Positions 9,439 to 20,579 of a stretch of 32,473 nt of DNA are shown here, in pieces. How positions within the stretch are numbered: position 1 is the first letter of the stretch; each line of letters opens with the position of its first letter. The stretch comes from a virus. A program made the position numbers and the translations under genes. The DNA lies in the IMG/VR virus record IMGVR_UViG_3300031857_000815, positions 1 to 32,473 of that record, one strand, 5' to 3'. Below the pieces are notes generated by a model that saw only the letters and a program-made list of their open reading frames with translations, was not told where the DNA came from and ran no database searches.

Positions 9439-9661
9439 CGGTCAATCGCTCGTTATCTATTAAGACATCATGACCTGCAACCTTGTCGAATAGTATCTCA
9501 CTGTTCTCTTCTATACCAGCTACATTTTGACCGAATGAAATAACGGTACCCTTTTGATACCGTATTTCTTTCATATCGTCAGCACCATACATGAACCCAG
9601 TGGTTGACATTTTGTTCTCTTGCTGTCTCTTTACTAATAAAAATTTATTTAATACTCTCAT
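9401..9661 (-). CDS. groS: GroES-like co-chaperonin
   Basis: 86 aa. It starts MRVLNKFLLVKRQQ as GroES does (short strand then basic). A mobile-loop-like segment (STTGFMYG) carries a hydrophobic tripeptide where host GroES has IVL. It continues with KGTVISFGQN, an EENSEILFDK turn and a closing DVVCVLH strand. It would cap the GroEL ring made from the gene just upstream; the genes overlap by 17 nt. The host-like bulge between strands is shortened. Phage GroES proteins such as T4 Gp31 serve capsid folding; that role here is inferred. Confidence 0.85.
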   Translation of the reverse strand: MRVLNKFLLVKRQQENKMSTTGFMYGADDMKEIRYQKGTVISFGQNVAGIEENSEILFDKVAGHDVLIDNERLTVIQEKDVVCVLH

Positions 9662-11213
9662 CTGCTCTTACATTTGTTATTATTGCATTTGTACTCATTA
9701 TTGTAGTCGCTACAGACACTGCGTTTAACAGTGCGTTCTTAGTAACCTTAGCTGGATCTATAATACCAAGCTTCATCATGTCTCCGTACTGCTCGTTCTT
9801 AACGTCATACCCCTCGTTCTCTATTGGCAACATGTTTTCCTTTATCTCCTCTGGGTCCTTACCTGCGTTAACTAGTATCTGATAAAATGGAGCGATGACA
9901 GTGTCACGCATTATCTTACAAGCCTTACTGTCTCCACGTAGCGTTGATGAAGCAGCGTCAACTAATGCTATACCACCACCTGGAAGTATACCCTCCTCAA
10001 GTGCGGCCGTTACAGCACACACAGCGTCGTCAATACGATCTCTCTTCTCCTTTTGCTCAATGTCACTAAGTGCACCAACATATATAACACCAACACCGCC
10101 AGATAGGTTTGCAATACGCTCGTTTGTGAAATCAAGCAGCTCCTTATCAGATGACATCTCAGAACGAGAGTCTTTTAGTTGATTAACCTGCCCATCAATA
10201 TCCTCAGCTCTGTCAGCGTTTGGCATAAATACTGTCATGCCCTTACTAACGACAATACGGTTGGCACGACCTAAGTCAGCTACAGTTATCAACGACAGGT
10301 CATCACCAGTAGACTCAGAGAAGAACGTACCGCCTGTTGCGATGGCTATATCCTCCATAAGGTCTTTTGTGCGGTACCCAAACGATGGTGGCTGTATGTT
10401 ACATGCCTTGATCTGGCCCTTAGCCACGTTTAGGTTTAATGTGTTCATAGCGTTTTGACCCAAAGTACCAATAATTAGTAGTGGTTTTTGGTTTACAACA
10501 CAATGCTTTAGTATGTTCTCTATAGATATCAAGTTATTAATCTCATGATCACATATTAATACATATGGATTGTCAAGAACACACTCTTGCTTCTTTTGGT
10601 CCGTAATGAAATAAGGAGAAGTCATTCCACGATCGATCTTCATACCTTTTATTATCTCAACATATGTGTTGCTTGTCATACTGTTCTCAACAGTAACAAC
10701 GTCAACCTCATTAAACGCACTAGCGATCATCTTACCGATCTCTCTGTCGTTATTTGCACTTATTGTGGCTACGTCAACTAGCTTTTTACCCTTAACCTTT
10801 TTACTCTTCTTGTCAAGCCATGCAACAACGTCCTTTGTTAAGTCGTTTATCTCTCTTATCACCTCAGTCACGTTGTCTGTATCTGACAGATGTATGTCGG
10901 CAGAATTAATAAGAGCCTCAGCCAACACAATAGATGTGGTTGTACCATCACCAGCAACTGTTGCCGTCTTCTCGGCAGCCTGGCGCATCATTATTACTGC
11001 CAAGTTCTCAGTTGGATCAAACAGGTTTATCGACTTAGCGACTGTCACACCGTCCTTTGTCACTGTTATACCACCCACATGGTGCTCTGACTCGATTAAT
11101 ACTGTGCGCCCTCGCGCACCTAATGTACTTTTGACTGCTCCAGCGATCGTCTTGATGCCTTTCTTGAGCTTTTGTTGGCCATCTTGGCCTAAATGAACAT
11201 GTTTTACTACCAT
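9645..11213 (-). CDS. groL: GroEL-like chaperonin, phage-encoded
   Basis: 522 aa from the preferred start MVVKHVHLGQ, against about 540 in bacterial GroEL. ATP-site motifs are intact: TKDGVTVAK (Asp54), AGDGTTT (Asp89), LSGGVGVIYVG, RIDDAV with the catalytic Asp near residue 390, and EGILPGGG and DPAKVTKNAL near the end. The apical domain is diverged and the GGM-repeat tail is absent. A frame start at 11261 would put the promoter inside the gene, so 11213 is chosen. With groES it forms a two-gene operon under its own promoter, directly after a terminator. Likely substrates are phage structural proteins (inferred). Confidence 0.95.
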   Translation of the reverse strand: MVVKHVHLGQDGQQKLKKGIKTIAGAVKSTLGARGRTVLIESEHHVGGITVTKDGVTVAKSINLFDPTENLAVIMMRQAAEKTATVAGDGTTTSIVLAEALINSADIHLSDTDNVTEVIREINDLTKDVVAWLDKKSKKVKGKKLVDVATISANNDREIGKMIASAFNEVDVVTVENSMTSNTYVEIIKGMKIDRGMTSPYFITDQKKQECVLDNPYVLICDHEINNLISIENILKHCVVNQKPLLIIGTLGQNAMNTLNLNVAKGQIKACNIQPPSFGYRTKDLMEDIAIATGGTFFSESTGDDLSLITVADLGRANRIVVSKGMTVFMPNADRAEDIDGQVNQLKDSRSEMSSDKELLDFTNERIANLSGGVGVIYVGALSDIEQKEKRDRIDDAVCAVTAALEEGILPGGGIALVDAASSTLRGDSKACKIMRDTVIAPFYQILVNAGKDPEEIKENMLPIENEGYDVKNEQYGDMMKLGIIDPAKVTKNALLNAVSVATTIMSTNAIITNVRADESIK

Positions 11214-11230
11214 TTTATTATATTTTGTCA

Positions 11231-11261
11231 CAAATATAGCAGATTTTCGTGACAAAAACAA
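11231..11261 (-). promoter_or_regulatory. Promoter of groEL-groES
   Basis: On the minus strand, TTG (11261-11259) is followed after 20 nt by TATATTTG (11238-11231), an excellent match to the Bacteroidota TTG / TAnnTTTG promoter. The start site would fall near 11224, giving a leader of about 10 nt before ATG 11213. The TTG is the end of the T-tract of the upstream terminator, so both signals share bases. Confidence 0.8.
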
Positions 11262-12991: not shown

Positions 12992-13075
12992 ATACCCCCA
13001 TCTGGCGCGCCAGCCCGATCGACCGAAACGACTGGCAAATCGATAGGGGGGTATGTATTTCGGAAAGTTCGGTCG
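12992..13075. repeat. Nested inverted repeats around a 12-bp palindrome
   Basis: ATACCCCC (12992-12999) pairs with GGGGGTAT (13047-13054); CGACCGAA (13020-13027) pairs with TTCGGTCG (13068-13075); and CTGGCGCGCCAG (13002-13013) is a perfect palindrome. The pairs interlock rather than nest as one stem, which fits protein binding better than a single hairpin. Confidence 0.6.
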
Positions 13076-13100
13076 GACTTTTTGGCTTTTTGCCTAGCGA

Positions 13101-13120
13101 CCTACCTACCTGCCTACCTG
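13101..13120 (+). repeat. Tandem CCTR tetranucleotide repeats
   Basis: Five consecutive CCTA/CCTG units, followed 20 bases later by a G-rich stretch (13142-13172) with four G-runs of at least three. The two are opposite in strand bias. Confidence 0.6.
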
Positions 13121-13445
13121 TACGCTACGCGCACGTGTGTAGGGGTGGGTGTGCTTGTGCGCAGGGGTGGGGTGGTGTGTTGTTATCTGAGACCAATTAC
13201 CCCTACCTTAAAATCGCTCGACAAACTTGTATTATAATTTGCATTATGTTAAATAGACCAACCGACCAATCGTTCAATCGTCCGTCCGTTCTACGTTTCA
13301 GCTCGATTGATTGGAGGGGAGGGGTTACCCCGTCTTGTAATCTTACTTCACAAATGAATTTACTGCAAAATAATCTAAATCGATCCCAAACCCAATACCA
13401 ATAAGACTTTGCCAGTCATTACAGCCTTCTCCAATGGTGTCGTCA

Positions 13446-13483
13446 CTACGTATAAACACTTAGATTCTTCTACGTATTAACAC
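13446..13483 (+). repeat. Direct repeat pair, 14 bp
   Basis: CTACGTATAAACAC at 13446-13459 and CTACGTATTAACAC at 13470-13483 differ at one base and start 24 bp apart; a third partial copy (CACGTATTT) follows at 13481. Spacing near two helical turns fits an iteron or regulator site. Confidence 0.5.
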
Positions 13484-13877
13484 GTATTTTTCAAAACGTC
13501 TAAAAAAAAATCGTTATTAATCCAATCAGTTGCCGTTACTTTGATGTAAGCAAACGAGCTAACAACAATACTTCTTACTAGAAAACAACACGGAAATAAG
13601 GGTGCGACTAGCCTAGTGCATAAAGTCTAAATGAAACCGATAATAAACACCGAAAGGGAAATGGTTAAAGTGTTATAGGCAATGAATAGTAATTAGATTA
13701 ATAAATATCGGTCTTTGACATCTTGGAACATGCGTCGCCTACGATAACATCAAAAAAGCGGAAGCTGAAAAGCAATTAAGACTACTCCTATTTCACGCAT
13801 GGTAGGTTACAGATAAAGATAATATCCTTGTGGTGGTTCGATTCCACCTATATAAGTGTGGTGCAAGGTACATTATA

Positions 13878-13924
13878 GCCGTGTTGACTATGAGTCATTA
13901 ACTGAGAGCGAAACTCAGCACGGC
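13878..13924 (+). ncRNA. Three-way-junction RNA before the first early gene
   Basis: GCCGTG (13878-13883) pairs with CACGGC (13919-13924). Inside are hairpins GACT-ATG-AGTC (13886-13896) and CTGAG-AGCGAAA-CTCAG (13902-13918). It stands where hammerheads stand before later genes, 24 nt from the next ATG. It carries TTAACTGA and GAGCGAAAC and is followed by CTAACC, echoing hammerhead sequence but lacking stem II. It could be a decayed hammerhead or another cis-acting fold. Confidence 0.55.
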
Positions 13925-13947
13925 ACTAACCATTTAAATTTATAGCC

Positions 13948-14061
13948 ATGAAAGTAGTATTTGCAGTTTGGACAAGCAGTTTAGCATTTGGTATTTTGTT
14001 CGGTATTGGATATGCCGTCTACCAAATCATAACAGGTCACGTTCCACCGATTTACATTTAG
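13948..14061 (+). CDS. Small single-pass membrane protein, 37 aa
   Basis: First gene of the early arm. About residues 3-29 are hydrophobic (VVFAVWTSSLAFGILFGIGY), with a short polar end (GHVPPIYI). TAG 14059-14061 shares its G with the first base of hammerhead 1. Small membrane proteins at the start of early operons often act on the host, but no family is recognised. Confidence 0.6.
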   Translation: MKVVFAVWTSSLAFGILFGIGYAVYQIITGHVPPIYI

Positions 14062-14117
14062 GTTAACTGATGAGAATTTAGTATTCGAAACGGCATTCAC
14101 AAGATGCCGTATTAACC
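14061..14117 (+). ncRNA. Hammerhead ribozyme 1 (type I)
   Basis: Stem I GGTTAA (14061-14066) with TTAACC (14112-14117); core CTGATGA (14067-14073); stem II GAAT/ATTC (14074-14077, 14083-14086); GAAA (14087-14090); stem III CGGCAT/ATGCCG (14091-14096, 14104-14109); cleavage triplet GTA (14109-14111), so cutting is expected after 14111. All invariant bases are present and A15.1-U16.1 can pair. Stems II and III are closed by loops and stem I is open, which makes it type I. Confidence 0.95.
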
Positions 14118-14134
14118 AATAAAACATAGAAATC

Positions 14135-14299
14135 ATGTATTACACAATAGAAATTTATTTAGAAAAAGGTCAATATGACTATACTGGCGAGATTCAAACA
14201 GAAGACAGATATATAATTGTCGATGCGGATGGATTTGATGCATGTGGTATACACATGACATTAGATGAGGCAAAGAAATTTATCAACGAGGTTGACTGA
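14135..14299 (+). CDS. Small acidic early protein, 54 aa
   Basis: Begins MYYTIEIYLEKGQYDYTG, a strand-rich half, then an acidic segment with DGFDACGIH and a C-terminal helix (LDEAKKFINEVD). No family recognised. Its ATG lies 23 nt after the predicted cut of hammerhead 1. Its TGA stop (14297-14299) falls inside the CTGATGA core of hammerhead 2, so the last codons also form ribozyme stem I. Confidence 0.7.
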   Translation: MYYTIEIYLEKGQYDYTGEIQTEDRYIIVDADGFDACGIHMTLDEAKKFINEVD

Positions 14300-14344
14300 T
14301 GAGGTCTCAATGACCGAAACGTGACTACGTGTCACGTCTTAACC
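14290..14344 (+). ncRNA. Hammerhead ribozyme 2 (type I)
   Basis: Stem I GGTTGA (14290-14295) with TTAACC (14339-14344), including one G-U pair; core CTGATGA (14296-14302); stem II GGTC/GACC (14303-14306, 14312-14315); GAAA (14316-14319); stem III CGTGAC/GTCACG (14320-14325, 14331-14336); triplet GTC (14336-14338), cut expected after 14338. Stems II and III differ in sequence from the other copies but keep pairing, so selection acts on the fold. Confidence 0.95.
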
Positions 14345-14361
14345 AATTTAATTTAATAGCC

Positions 14362-14472
14362 ATGAGCACAAAAATCTTAAAGATTGAAGGGAACTTCGAG
14401 GTATGGGGATTCTTTCTAAACGGAACATTAGTTAAGACTAAGAGATTATTAATTCCATTCAGAGCGCGATGA
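14362..14472 (+). CDS. Small early protein, 36 aa
   Basis: Begins MSTKILKIEGNFEVWGFFLNG, 23 nt after the predicted cut of hammerhead 2, and ends CGA TGA with the next ATG inside (overlap of 4 nt). Beta-prone and basic at the end. No family recognised. Confidence 0.6.
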   Translation: MSTKILKIEGNFEVWGFFLNGTLVKTKRLLIPFRAR

Positions 14473-14609
14473 TACTAGTATTTTTTAACCATCGTAGAGA
14501 GCAGATAATCATCACGAAGGAATTTGAGAACGAACAACATTTTAATAACTACGTAGCTTACATGCAAAAGCGTTACGGCTACCAATTAGACGAGGTATAT
14601 AACAAATAG
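14469..14609 (+). CDS. Small early protein, 46 aa
   Basis: Starts at ATG 14469 within the stop of the previous gene. Sequence MILVFFNHRREQIIITKEF, then a Tyr/Gln-rich helix (YVAYMQKRYGYQLDEVY). No family recognised. TAG 14607-14609 begins the TAGAAATT spacer before the next ATG. Confidence 0.6.
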   Translation: MILVFFNHRREQIIITKEFENEQHFNNYVAYMQKRYGYQLDEVYNK

Positions 14610-14614
14610 AAATT

Positions 14615-14842
14615 ATGGAAAAGAGAATGAACAACGTAGGCTTTCACAAGGCGGAAGGCACTATCAGACAATTGACAATCAGAGAGCAATTGATTCGCAA
14701 CAAGCAATTCGTTGGCATCAACGACATCAAGCACCCGATACACGGAATAATATCCGTTGACAGAGACAAGCTAGACGACCTACTCAAGTACGAGGAGGGT
14801 CAATTGATTCGATTCAAGGAGAGCATGTTTCACCAAGGTTAA
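14615..14842 (+). CDS. Early protein, 75 aa
   Basis: Polar and helical (LTIREQLIRNKQF, LDDLLKYEEGQLIRF) around a short strand (IHGIISVDRDKL). No known domain. Its TAA stop (14840-14842) is the last three bases of the 5' strand of stem I of hammerhead 3, so gene and ribozyme share sequence. Confidence 0.7.
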   Translation: MEKRMNNVGFHKAEGTIRQLTIREQLIRNKQFVGINDIKHPIHGIISVDRDKLDDLLKYEEGQLIRFKESMFHQG

Positions 14843-14893
14843 CTGACGAGATTTAAATAATCGAAACAGCACTCCAAAGGTGCTGTCTTAACC
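14837..14893 (+). ncRNA. Hammerhead ribozyme 3 (type I)
   Basis: Stem I GGTTAA (14837-14842) with TTAACC (14888-14893); core CTGACGA (14843-14849, position 7 being free to vary); stem II GATT/AATC (14850-14853, 14859-14862); GAAA (14863-14866); stem III CAGCAC/GTGCTG (14867-14872, 14880-14885); triplet GTC (14885-14887), cut expected after 14887. The next ATG is at 14912. Confidence 0.95.
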
Positions 14894-14911
14894 AATAAAA
14901 ACTTAGAACAA

Positions 14912-15136
14912 ATGAGAGTAATTAGAATCAACACAACAGCATTTAATGAAGAAGACTTCTATCTATTAACTACCTTGAACGATGACCAAATCGCTGAAGT
15001 CATCCAACCAATCGTAAACGCAGAACGAGATGGATATGAGGAGTACACGAACGAAGATTTGTTCAGAGCGTTAACGGATAGATTTCCGAATGACAAGATA
15101 GACATGTTTCATGAATTTGATAAACTAACATTTTAG
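14912..15136 (+). CDS. Acidic early protein, 74 aa
   Basis: Acidic and helical (EEDFYLLTTLNDDQIAEVI, DGYEEYTNEDLFRALTD). It resembles small acidic anti-host or regulatory phage proteins only in a general way. Preceded by TAGAACAA before ATG, 24 nt after the predicted cut of hammerhead 3. Confidence 0.65.
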   Translation: MRVIRINTTAFNEEDFYLLTTLNDDQIAEVIQPIVNAERDGYEEYTNEDLFRALTDRFPNDKIDMFHEFDKLTF

Positions 15137-15141
15137 AACTT

Positions 15142-15423
15142 ATGGCTGAAATAAATTTTCAAAAAGAAAAATCATGGAGCATTAAGGATAAATTTCCTAT
15201 TAATGTTTATGTTGAGAAATCATGGACGGGAACATACTTCGTTATCACTGCACCAATCATGAGCATAAGTTATGGTGTGTGGGAAGAATTAGATTCAAAT
15301 AGAGAGGTAGACATATCAAGATATGAATATGACAATGGTAAAGCAACATGGACTTCCTACACCCTAGACCAAATAAACAAATGGGGAGAAAAGAATAAAG
15401 ATAAAATAATTATTAACCTATAA
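15142..15423 (+). CDS. Early protein, 93 aa
   Basis: Beta-rich with Trp and Tyr (FPINVYVEKSWTGTYFVIT, SISYGVWEEL) and a C-terminal Lys/Asn-rich helix. No family recognised. The start is fixed by the TAGAACTT spacer that follows the previous stop. Confidence 0.65.
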   Translation: MAEINFQKEKSWSIKDKFPINVYVEKSWTGTYFVITAPIMSISYGVWEELDSNREVDISRYEYDNGKATWTSYTLDQINKWGEKNKDKIIINL

Positions 15424-15426
15424 CTT

Positions 15427-15642
15427 ATGGACACGATAGACAGAATAATCGCATACGAGAGCGGGATGCTTGATGGTGCAGAGATGGTATACATGTTCTC
15501 TGAACTTGTAAAAAATGGTAGCGCATGGTCGTTACAAGGTCATTACGGACGGATGGCATCCCGACTAATTGAGGTCGGGATATTAACCAAGGATGGTGAC
15601 ATAGATGAAATGAGAGCAATAGAATACGGAATTAATATGTAG
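15427..15642 (+). CDS. Early protein, 71 aa
   Basis: Helical, with IDRIIAYESGMLDGAEMVYMFSELVKNGSAWSLQ split into a short N-terminal helix, a GMLDGAE turn and the segment HYGRMASRLIEVG. The pattern resembles a common small phage protein whose second half starts LQGHYGR. Function unknown. ATG follows the previous stop by 3 nt. Confidence 0.7.
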   Translation: MDTIDRIIAYESGMLDGAEMVYMFSELVKNGSAWSLQGHYGRMASRLIEVGILTKDGDIDEMRAIEYGINM

Positions 15643-15647
15643 AAATC

Positions 15648-16118
15648 ATGAAAGGAAGTTTTATAAATTGGATGTACTCAACCATCCAAACAATACCAAA
15701 CAAAGGTGATTGGGCAACAATATGTCTATACACCGACCGACAAGTAGCTAAGGTACATGACGTATCTAAAGACGGCAAGAGTGTAATCATCCAACACTGC
15801 AACACAACAGGAGATGGGACTGAACTACCAATGGGACATCAAGATTGGAAGCACGAACCAATAGACCATTTCGAGACGATAGTATATAGAAACAAGTCTT
15901 GGAGAAAGGAAAGCAAGTCAATCGAATTTGACGACAAGTGGTACAAGCAGTACGAGAGGTCTGGCGAAAGATTCAAAGACTACACAATTGGTCTTGACCT
16001 TTGGGACGAACGAGGACGTCTCAAGCTAATTGATGGAGTAACTAAATTAAAAACAACCTATAGTAAAATAAACATAGTGTTCGGTGTATGTGACTATCAC
16101 TACGATTGGACATTTTAA
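15648..16118 (+). CDS. Early protein, 156 aa
   Basis: It starts with a short helix, then a beta-rich region (WATICLYTDRQVAKVHDVS, KSVIIQHC) and charged segments (KSWRKESKSIEFDDKWYKQ cut by turns), ending in FGVCDYHYDWTF. No catalytic motif or domain recognised. Preceded by TAGAAATC directly after the previous stop. Confidence 0.65.
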   Translation: MKGSFINWMYSTIQTIPNKGDWATICLYTDRQVAKVHDVSKDGKSVIIQHCNTTGDGTELPMGHQDWKHEPIDHFETIVYRNKSWRKESKSIEFDDKWYKQYERSGERFKDYTIGLDLWDERGRLKLIDGVTKLKTTYSKINIVFGVCDYHYDWTF

Positions 16119-16130
16119 ATCTAGAAACAA

Positions 16131-16520
16131 ATGCTAAAACAATTCAGCCAGTCGCTCTACCCAACGGGACGTTCGGTAAGCCAAGTAAACTACACGTCAA
16201 GATACACGACGTTAACCAACACCAAGAAATACATCTGCCTATCTGTCGAGGACATCGAAGCAAGTGTTCGGGCATTCATTCGACAGCACGGCATGACGAC
16301 CGACATGTTGTTCGGTGAGTTCGATGGGGAGGTATTAAAGCTTTCCGTTCTGACTTGTCACAAAGACAAACGGTCAGCCTTATTCTTCGGCATGTTTAAC
16401 AGCCAACCAATCGTTGACACTAACACGATGATTGTGACTTCTCTACCAACACCTCAAGTAACAGGCACTAACACGCAGAGAATCAGCTACATAAATTATG
16501 TCATTGACAACCTGTGTTGA
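16131..16520 (+). CDS. Early protein, 129 aa, last gene before the iteron region
   Basis: N-terminal basic Ser/Thr/Tyr-rich stretch, a VEDIEASVRAFIRQHGM helix, then a beta half (GEVLKLSVLTCHKD, ALFFGMFNSQPIV). No family recognised. The final TGA (16518-16520) overlaps the first GTGTTGACTTT repeat. A frame beginning at 16106 covers the same DNA but is short and lacks protein-like pattern. Confidence 0.6.
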   Translation: MLKQFSQSLYPTGRSVSQVNYTSRYTTLTNTKKYICLSVEDIEASVRAFIRQHGMTTDMLFGEFDGEVLKLSVLTCHKDKRSALFFGMFNSQPIVDTNTMIVTSLPTPQVTGTNTQRISYINYVIDNLC

Positions 16521-16773
16521 CTTTATGTTAAGTTTGTGTCGACTTTTTTCGACCTAACTTACACATTATCAGTCAATTATCCATTTTAGTGTTAACTTTA
16601 CGACTTTTAGTCCCTAGTGGTAGAATTTTTTTTTCTACTACTATATCTATATATATATATTTTTTTTTTGAAAAATAGAAAAAAGTTGTAAAGTTAACAC
16701 TTTCCTTATAAACACTAGAAAAACTTAACACAAAGTCGTAATAAAGTCAACACAAAACCCCAAAAGTCAACAC
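16514..16773. repeat. Iterons facing inward on an AT-rich core: candidate origin or control region
   Basis: Forward copies: GTGTTGACTTT (16514-16524), GTGTCGACTTT (16536-16546), GTGTTAACTTTA (16589-16600). Reverse copies: TAAAGTTAACAC (16689-16700), AACTTAACAC (16722-16731), TAAAGTCAACAC (16742-16753), AAAAGTCAACAC (16762-16773). The two central copies form a 16-bp inverted repeat with one mismatch (16589-16604, 16685-16700). Between them, 16625-16680 is almost pure A/T with a TATATATA run. The region has no gene. Symmetric iterons around an unwinding-prone core is the look of a replication origin; a large operator is the alternative. Confidence 0.65.
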
Positions 16774-16774
16774 T

Positions 16775-16984
16775 ATGAACGAACTAATAAAATTTACAAT
16801 CGAGAATTTAGGTCTGAGTCACATAGAGTTCAAACCTAATCCCAAAATACTTGGAGGTCGTTTAATACTACGCACCAAGTACGACAGCCAATTGGTCAAA
16901 CGATATGCCCATCGGTCTGAGATAGACAACCTAACTGGCGAAATAATAATTAAATTTACTAATGTAAAAATCATACTATGCTAG
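16775..16984 (+). CDS. Hypothetical early protein, 69 aa
   Basis: Starts one base after the last repeat copy of the iteron region. N-terminal helix (ELIKFTIENLGL) and a strand-rich rest (GGRLILRTKYDSQ, TGEIIIKFTNVKIIL). No family recognised. Overlaps the next gene by 7 nt. Confidence 0.6.
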   Translation: MNELIKFTIENLGLSHIEFKPNPKILGGRLILRTKYDSQLVKRYAHRSEIDNLTGEIIIKFTNVKIILC

Positions 16985-17208
16985 AACAAATTTTTAAAGA
17001 CATCTTCATGGACACCATGGAGAGGTTAAGGGAGATGACTCCAATCGACAGGCATGACGTTCTGTTGTCAGCTTATGACTCAAGGCAGAGAGAGAGCTTT
17101 ATTCAGATGTTAAACGAGCTATCTGAGTGTGCGTTAGACCTTGAGTACTATGAGATATGTGCAACCATAAAAAAGATAAAGGATGAAGAACTATCAGTGG
17201 TGGACTAA
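16978..17208 (+). CDS. Hypothetical helical protein, 76 aa
   Basis: All-helical and charged: DTMERLREMTPIDRHDVLLS, then a Ser/Glu-rich helix and a C-terminal helix with ATIKKIKDEELSVVD. No family recognised. It belongs to the small early genes after the iterons. Confidence 0.6.
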   Translation: MLEQIFKDIFMDTMERLREMTPIDRHDVLLSAYDSRQRESFIQMLNELSECALDLEYYEICATIKKIKDEELSVVD

Positions 17209-20241: not shown

Positions 20242-20378
20242 TCTCAAGTGGCTGAGTGGTCGAAGGCGAAATATGACTTAAAAGATGGGGAGCTTGACCA
20301 TCATTAAAACTGTAGGAGTTTCAACGTATGTCATGCAGGTAAACGGATGCGGCAAGGGTTCGAATCCCTTCTTGAGAA
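20242..20378 (+). tRNA. tRNA-like gene 1, possible tRNA-Leu(UAA) with 47-nt insertion
   Basis: Acceptor TCTCAAG (20242-20248) pairs fully with CTTGAGA (20371-20377), followed by discriminator A. D-arm GCT/GGC with loop GAGTGGTCGAA (20251-20267) and T-arm AAGGG-TTCGAAT-CCCTT (20354-20370) are canonical for a class II tRNA. If TATGA (20272-20276) pairs with TCATG (20331-20335), the loop begins CTTAAAA (anticodon TAA, Leu), and bases 20284-20330 are extra; they include the hairpin GATGG/CCATC. Removing them gives 90 nt, normal for tRNA-Leu. Oddities: four bases instead of one between D- and anticodon stems. No CCA is encoded. Confidence 0.6.
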
Positions 20379-20441
20379 CATTTAAAATGCTATTGTGGGA
20401 GTGACTTACTTCAACCCTCTGACAGCTGGAAAGACAGCGTT

Positions 20442-20579
20442 AGTCAGGTGGCGGAAGGCTAGGGATTTCCCTGGCGTGGTAGACGCACGGAGGTCAAAGG
20501 ATTTTGTACACAACTTCGGTAAGTGAGGATATTGACTGATGAACACTTACAAATACAGGTTCGAGTCCTGTCCTGACAA
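20442..20579 (+). tRNA. tRNA-like gene 2, possible tRNA-Leu(CAA) with inserted hairpins
   Basis: Acceptor GTCAGG (20443-20448) with CCTGAC (20572-20577), first pair A-A mismatched; discriminator A20579. T-arm ACAGG-TTCGAGT-CCTGT is canonical. D-stem GCG/CGC is separated by a 30-nt loop: the usual GAA...TGGTAGA is split by a 7-bp hairpin (20458-20475). Anticodon stem CGGAG/CTTCG (20488-20492, 20514-20518) encloses 21 nt beginning GTCAAAG (anticodon CAA, Leu) plus 14 more. The variable arm GTAAGTG/CACTTAC (20519-20550) has an 18-nt loop. It may be a diverged tRNA or another tRNA-ended RNA. Confidence 0.5.

Follow-up and report, generated by a model that had tools for sequence, protein, structure and literature searches.

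Compact type I hammerhead ribozymes between stop and start codons in phage contigs as putative gene punctuators

Clustered hammerhead ribozymes in phage DNA have been described before. According to the available part of the report by Perreault et al. in 2011, clustered hammerheads flank single prophage genes or short blocks, and a role in RNA processing was proposed for them; activity was shown for three tandem sets, with cleavage in vitro and, for one set, in E. coli, and a hammerhead variant lies 13 nt before the helicase start codon of the haloviruses HF1 and HF2 (PMC3088659). A 2017 review, in its accessible sections, says much the same about phage hammerheads in general terms and calls the role of prokaryotic hammerheads an open question in the field (PMC6155905). 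The present locus shares with the clusters of Perreault et al., as far as the available text describes them, the occurrence of at least two hammerheads close together flanking phage genes, an arrangement that we met in the window and in other loci. However, their clusters comprise all three types and are, in the same portion of text, often stabilised by pseudoknots (PMC3088659), whereas the family described here has one rigid type I design with no stem I loop, is found mainly in viral contigs and is tied to stop and start codons. The original prediction took a tandem array between small genes of a phage early operon to be no standard described system. This part of it is not supported, because the accessible text of 2011 already presents prophage clusters together with the processing idea (PMC3088659), and the array as such is therefore not new. 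The classical type I hammerheads of Schistosoma and newt have the same topology, core and cut site, but, in the part of the review that covers them, their stem I is extended with internal loops or touches stem II through loop-loop contacts, and they reside in satellite DNA or retroelements (PMC6155905); in the present family stem I is a plain 6-bp helix that ends in A/A. The features that appear new are the compact and uniform sub-architecture, how common it is among phage contigs, the blindness of Rfam to it and its stop/start placement, although the comparison with Perreault et al. was made by text and some copies may be theirs. A literature search of titles and abstracts, which covered few subscription journals, returned no report that deals with the sub-architecture or with hammerheads in phages of Flavobacterium or in pelagiphages.

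The window is the whole 32,473-nt stretch of DNA that we analysed (IMG/VR virus record IMGVR_UViG_3300031857_000815, positions 1 to 32,473). Inspection of the sequence and a structure-requiring finder located three type I hammerheads on its plus strand, in the places where the original prediction had put three intact ones. Hammerhead 1 (14061..14117) consists of stem I at 14061-14066/14112-14117, the core at 14067-14073, stem II at 14074-14086 with the loop TTAGT, GAA at 14087-14089 and stem III at 14090-14110, and its predicted cut follows A14111. Hammerhead 2 (14290..14344) has the core at 14296-14302, stem II at 14303-14315 (loop TCAAT) and stem III at 14319-14337, with the predicted cut after C14338, and hammerhead 3 (14837..14893) has the core at 14843-14849, stem II at 14850-14862 (loop TAAAT) and stem III at 14866-14886, with the predicted cut after C14887. 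From 5' to 3', all three copies follow the same order: A, stem I (6 nt), CTGAYGA, a 13-nt stem II hairpin of 4 bp and a 5-nt loop, GAA, stem III, H, stem I' (6 nt) and A. The two adenines that flank stem I are at 14060 and 14118 in copy 1, 14289 and 14345 in copy 2, and 14836 and 14894 in copy 3, all on the plus strand. The core CUGANGA ... GAAA ... UH is in the correct order in all three copies by sequence and finder, and the order of the strands makes stem I the open end in each. The claimed CTGANGA/GAAA core, GTA or GTC cleavage triplet, 6-bp stem I and 4-bp stem II were likewise found in every copy, the stem I of hammerhead 2 including one G-U pair. Stem III, claimed to have 6 bp plus an A-U pair, is roughly as stated but partly one pair longer, since the finder counts 8, 7 and 8 contiguous pairs including A-U in copies 1, 2 and 3.

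The window contains exactly three matches to a loose core pattern, a number reached by 1 of 100 shuffles. Copies 2 and 3 have the hammerhead as their minimum-energy fold; in copy 1 the hammerhead fold, at -13.9 kcal/mol, lies 0.8 above a competing fold at -14.7 kcal/mol. A model built from 58 copies, R1, scored copy 1, which belongs to its seed, at 60.2 bits, and copies 2 and 3, which are outside the seed, at 58.4 and 62.6 bits. At the level of sequence, the conclusion that the three motifs are complete type I hammerheads is strongly supported. On the plus strand 5' of the first small ORF, a string at 13882-13931 (TGTTGACTATGAG...CGAAAC...CTAACC) looks by eye like a possible decayed fourth copy. 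Its core has one base missing, it has no proper stem III, its leader is like that of copy 2, it folds otherwise, and it was matched neither by the finder nor by model R1; it is probably either a fourth copy that has decayed or a structured leader of some other kind.

The three copies are interleaved with small genes on the plus strand. The TAG stop (14059-14061) of a 37-aa ORF (13948..14061) shares the first base, G, of copy 1 stem I. After the copy 1 cut, the sequence predicts a 23-nt 5' leader with a 5'-OH (14112..14134), followed by a 54-aa ORF (14135..14299) whose TGA stop (14297-14299) falls within the catalytic core of copy 2. A predicted 23-nt leader after the copy 2 cut (14339..14361) precedes a 36-aa ORF (MSTKILKIEGNFEVW..., 14362..14472), and a 75-aa ORF (14615..14842) ends in a TAA stop (14840-14842) within copy 3 stem I; the copy 3 cut would leave a 24-nt leader (14888..14911), again predicted from sequence, before a 74-aa ORF (14912..15136). 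Neither the 54-aa nor the 74-aa ORF matched PHROGs or Pfam. Ten ribozyme-led ORFs compared with Pfam gave no match, and in PHROGs the outcome was one family of unknown function plus two weak matches, one to an unknown and one to a transcription regulator. Between 13.9 and 18.3 kb, the three copies are distributed among 15 ORFs. They lie among the first genes of a rightward arm that carries replication genes, 3' of a divergent intergenic region, and this location, read from the sequence, is consistent with the early operon of the original prediction, with which gene position thus agrees.

Positions 13000-17000 had no nucleotide match in the phage collection and so no close named relative there. 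The nearest phage by primase and GroEL is MW202828 (50.1% and 49.2% identity), in which R1 found no hammerhead copy. The phage-encoded GroEL is at 9645-11261 on the minus strand of the window (PHROG 5725, E 1.1e-128; 49.2% identical to that of MW202828). Also in the window, a tRNA whose anticodon loop is predicted to hold a 44-nt insertion is at 20242-20379 on the plus strand; it scores 35.6 bits with the Rfam tRNA model, with a long insert, and ARAGORN finds it only if introns are allowed. By eye, a second tRNA-like sequence is apparent at about 20443-20578.

Relatives of these elements were collected from IMG/VR in two scans, each of which returned at least 120 stretches. The first fixed GGTTRA/TTAACC and left the stem II loop free, and the second left stem I free and fixed the core and a TNANT loop. 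In 84,980 bacterial and archaeal genomes, the first pattern was present in only two stretches. The finder, which requires all three stems, identified 314 copies, 293 of them in unique contexts, in 225 sequences (2.07 Mb) that came from the matches listed and were mostly fetched because they bear the motif; a control with the core reversed gave no match in the same sequences. Although the second pattern did not demand stem II pairing, 226 of its 233 unique listed hits form all three free inner pairs. A complete type I hammerhead was present in 215 of the 228 listed hits with enough flank, compared with 7 of 4,560 shuffled-flank controls. By eye, nine of the 13 failing hits resemble hammerheads with a flawed or short stem III and four do not (L123, L159, L176, L208). 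On whether related phages offer covariance support, a point raised in the original prediction, covariation was found both in stem II and in the whole hammerhead. In an alignment of 58 copies (A2; 57 of 64 gap-free copies plus window copy 1), which is biased because the copies were chosen for pairing, 99.4% of cells pair and 14 of 16 pairs vary on both sides, whereas pairing falls to 31.9-36.6% when the partners are slid by one column. Two L039 copies, L084, one L183 copy, L216 and two L222 copies were left out of this alignment. Of the 293 unique copies, 274 entered the placement count below, which was limited by flank, and 288 the count of A/A against loop, and 228 of 233 hits entered the whole-hammerhead count; the window copies are represented in these counts by identical ones in L021/L081.

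The design is highly uniform. Among complete hammerheads from listed second-scan hits, stem I is exactly 6 bp in 214 of 215. An A stands on both sides of stem I in 100% of the listed copies of the GGTTAA class (n=145) and, on the two sides, in 95% and 94% of the others (n=135). Loop II is mostly T-N-A-N-T and stem II mostly 4 bp, and the cut triplet is GTC or GTA in 141 of 155 cases in first-scan loci and 134 of 135 in second-scan loci, among the matches listed. The TNANT loop is found in 221 of 269 copies with the A/A end, as opposed to 1 of 19 in which A/A is missing or paired, one scan having selected for the loop; in loci unselected for the loop, and with a slightly wider loop definition, the corresponding values are 119/149 and 2/6 (p=0.02). 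In L275 and L276, all nine copies with a stem I of 7-8 bp have a 5-bp stem II and all seven with 6 bp have a 4-bp stem II. L277 breaks this length rule, with a 5-bp stem II in four of six copies with a six-bp stem I. We infer that the lengths of helices I and II are matched for side-by-side contact.

Several other ideas about the design were dropped. The first scan suggested that a fixed stem I serves as a trans-pairing tag, but the scan with stem I free gave many stem I sequences; because the first pattern itself fixed GGTTRA, the fixed stem I is mostly an effect of the search. Selection for the type I topology was considered, and we make no such claim because the second scan fixed a loop that may itself be linked to this type. 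A hairpin at the 5' end of the downstream product, formed by stem I' with a later string, was rejected as a general mechanism and kept as a lead. In the variable class it can form in 58 of 140 copies, a modest excess that is above every control (two sets of 50, means about 42, maxima 57 and 55); in the GGTTAA class the count, 4 of 148, is at or below control. A possible 5' hairpin with a second stem I string is striking in L121, L129, L143, L128, L152, L154, L188, L219 and L221.

The Rfam hammerhead models, named as a check in the original prediction, found no hammerhead in the window at the gathering score. At loose settings, the sole trace in the window was a match of RAGATH-1-hammerhead (RF03152) to copy 3 at 23.8 bits, below the threshold of 56.3, and copies 1 and 2 drew no match from this model up to an E of 5. 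Rfam likewise found no hammerhead in 15 loci that hold 49 finder-listed copies, and in six loci from cultured or named phages it gave only RAGATH-1-hammerhead, at 36.8 and 30.4 bits, again under 56.3. The other Rfam hammerhead families, which we take to be Hammerhead_1, Hammerhead_3, Hammerhead_II, HH9 and HH10, had no match in the window and none in those 15 loci. RAGATH-1-hammerhead is similar in its core and open stem I, but it differs in that an additional hairpin is modelled at the 5' end and stem II is modelled as short. With a covariance model of the present family, many intergenic elements of phages that escaped Rfam here would be annotated.

The position of the ribozymes relative to genes was determined for the 274 copies, from the matches listed, that have 250 nt or more of flank on each side. 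In 251 of them, an ORF of at least 40 codons opens with an ATG within 100 nt after the cut, compared with 576 of 1,370 random same-strand sites and 39 of 274 on the opposite strand; 147 of the 251 starts lie 20-29 nt after the cut, and 23 copies have no ATG-led ORF within 100 nt. In three pelagivirus copies, unlike most, the next annotated gene is about 170-420 nt away. On the other side, the stop of an upstream ORF lies between -100 and +20 of stem I in 248 of 274 copies (random, 401/1,370). Stops fall inside stem I or the core in 111 of 274 copies, as against 52 of 1,370 random sites for the same interval. Leaders of the GGTTAA class have a median of 22 nt (IQR 20-24, n=131) and contain 55% A after the first six bases, and those of other classes have a median of 28 nt. 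Shine-Dalgarno-like strings are present in 22 of 131 leaders of the GGTTAA class and in 82 of 122 of the other classes. Genes of Bacteroidota phages make little use of Shine-Dalgarno sequences, and the GGTTAA-class leader pattern agrees with such phages.

Members of the family are abundant in viral contigs and occur in cultured phages. Of 30 records searched with R1, 29 contain copies, the highest number in a single record being nine; 28 of the 30 are from IMG/VR and were picked for having a copy, and the other two are named phages, one with a copy and one without. In L275, nine copies are spread across 4.3 kb of small genes. An exact 25-mer is present in 7 of 240 contexts and was found in 46 IMG/VR stretches, which suggests, as a rough estimate from the matches listed, of the order of 1,600 family sites in IMG/VR. 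Copies in cultured phages were reached through a primase search and blastn with three copies. R1 scores were 51.6 bits in Flavobacterium Elemovirus MT497067, MT497073 and MT497069 and 41.8 bits in elemoE MT497078, 50.0-53.3 bits in the Pelagibacter phages Jormungand, HTVC131P and HTVC142P, 56.5 and 49.6 bits for two copies in the uncultured pelagivirus AP013542, and 64.0 bits in Methylophilales phage MEP301. Matches in Streptomyces phages (30 records) were rejected, the one sampled scoring 15.9 and 13.7 bits, which is chance level. Stem II is fully paired in five sampled records of Elemovirus groups A, B and C, and two of its four pairs are broken in three sampled records of groups D, E and F. 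This finding suggests that activity may be dispensable or graded.

Hammerhead cleavage chemistry and the resulting end groups are known for the class, and the 5' product of a type I hammerhead keeps the whole ribozyme body while the 3' product begins at stem I'. Because the ribozymes are placed between a stop and a start, processing of operon RNA is the most economical reading. We propose, with a probability of roughly 0.7, that each element is a hammerhead gene punctuator whose self-cleavage would split the early polycistronic RNA into mRNAs with short leaders. The ribozyme would fold in the early-operon transcript once its 3' strand has been made and no ribosome is on it, and would then cut itself in the interval that separates the stop of a gene from the start of its successor. 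Given the ends of type I products, the ribozyme body would stay on the upstream mRNA, giving it a folded 3' terminus that carries a 2',3'-cyclic phosphate, and the downstream gene would receive a leader that is short (about 20-30 nt), open and rich in A and starts with a 5'-OH. Single- or few-gene mRNAs whose ends are independent of their neighbours would thereby arise from the polycistronic RNA, and the decay and translation of these mRNAs would probably be independent too. We infer that these copies cleave in infected cells and that the selected benefit is mRNA stability or translation. Counting against punctuation are the ribozyme-free boundaries, the homologues of the 36-aa gene that are not ribozyme-led, the broken Elemovirus stems, the competing fold of copy 1, the 23 copies that lack an ATG-led ORF in the 100 nt after the cut and the three pelagivirus copies far from their next annotated gene. 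Many boundaries in the same operons have no ribozyme, so processing is not needed at each gene.

A more elaborate 'stop-ribozyme-start' arrangement, in which an RNA of about 55 nt from an unregistered subfamily would end a gene, cut the message and supply the next gene with a standard 5'-OH leader, the moment of the cut being set by upstream translation, seems doubtful to us. We are equally hesitant about its corollary, that the rigid design (6-bp helix, A/A end, UNANU loop) enables all of these roles and that the core or stem often supplies the stop. It is somewhat less probable that cleavage is gated by translation, so that the element is a sensor that cuts only without, or just after, upstream translation and not a constitutive cutter. 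The upstream stop lies in or against stem I and the core, and a terminating ribosome would therefore cover the ribozyme. In line with such gating, 231 of the 248 upstream stops fall between -9 and +18 of stem I, clustering at -3 and -2 (62), at +3, the stem I TAA (54), and at +7, the core TGA (50), and two of the three window copies use precisely these last two stops. However, compact genomes alone would draw stops close, the motif itself provides stops in two frames, and hammerheads can fold ahead of the arrival of a ribosome.

The surroundings of the 36-aa gene behind copy 2 bear on an improbable alternative, that strings shared at the ribozyme act as a recombination linker and make gene-sized modules that shuffle between phages, cleavage being secondary. 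Homologues of this gene (E 1e-6 or better) were found at 14 other loci. Nine are directly hammerhead-led (L021, L081, L060, L058, L075, L002, L010, L072, L083); among these, L021 and L081 are near-identical to the window, and L002 and L010 share the same copies. In the other five (L023, L037, L050, L073, L099), no ribozyme directly precedes the homologue. Among the led relatives that are distinct, the genes on the upstream side seem by eye to differ, as shuffling would have it; elsewhere, also by eye, it is the downstream gene that has changed and the upstream gene that is kept (for copy 3, L045 and L060; for copy 1, L073 and L050). Homology breaks occur in 78 of 91 comparisons at ribozyme boundaries versus 324 of 443 at nearby ribozyme-free boundaries (p=0.011; p=0.002 before the control for region), which is suggestive only, the comparisons not being independent, and the excess is not significant when distinct boundaries are counted after regional control (p=0.13). 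Moreover, the stems II and III of these relatives are unlike those of copy 2 yet still paired; such turnover with compensation is unnecessary for a linker that acts at the DNA level, and the stem I sequence is widely variable. It is very unlikely that excised segments are circularised or spliced through hammerhead ligation or a host ligase. Such segments would carry the 5'-OH and 2',3'-cyclic-phosphate ends, and among the listed second-scan loci a stem I is shared by 17 of 81 same-contig pairs and only 162 of 8,964 different-contig pairs; nevertheless, many neighbours in one phage differ in their stem I strands, and Perreault et al., in the available text, could not detect spliced or circular products (PMC3088659). 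That the elements are decaying or neutral sequence without function is hardly credible: the decayed-looking string at 13882-13931 and the broken stem II of Elemovirus D/E/F could be read this way, but nearly all listed hits pair in stem II unasked and the stems of copy 2 are rebuilt in relatives.

Because it is abundant, has a strict placement that predicts exact 5' ends and is present in cultured phages, the family makes the question of the prokaryotic hammerhead role testable, and Elemovirus isolates on one host strain differ naturally in stem II pairing. In Elemovirus records, annotated 108-nt 'hypothetical protein' genes overlie the ribozyme on the opposite strand (L226, 27080-27187; L227 and L228, 1462-1569; L235, 967-1074; L278, L279 and L280, 167-274; absent in L281). 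These genes are probably spurious, and a family covariance model would make it easier to weed out ORFs predicted on top of ribozymes. Jormungand has a pair of genes for the anti-restriction protein ArdA (L229, 816-1683) some 1.3-2.2 kb upstream of its hammerhead, and the available part of PMC3088659 likewise reports an ardA gene with a hammerhead next to it.
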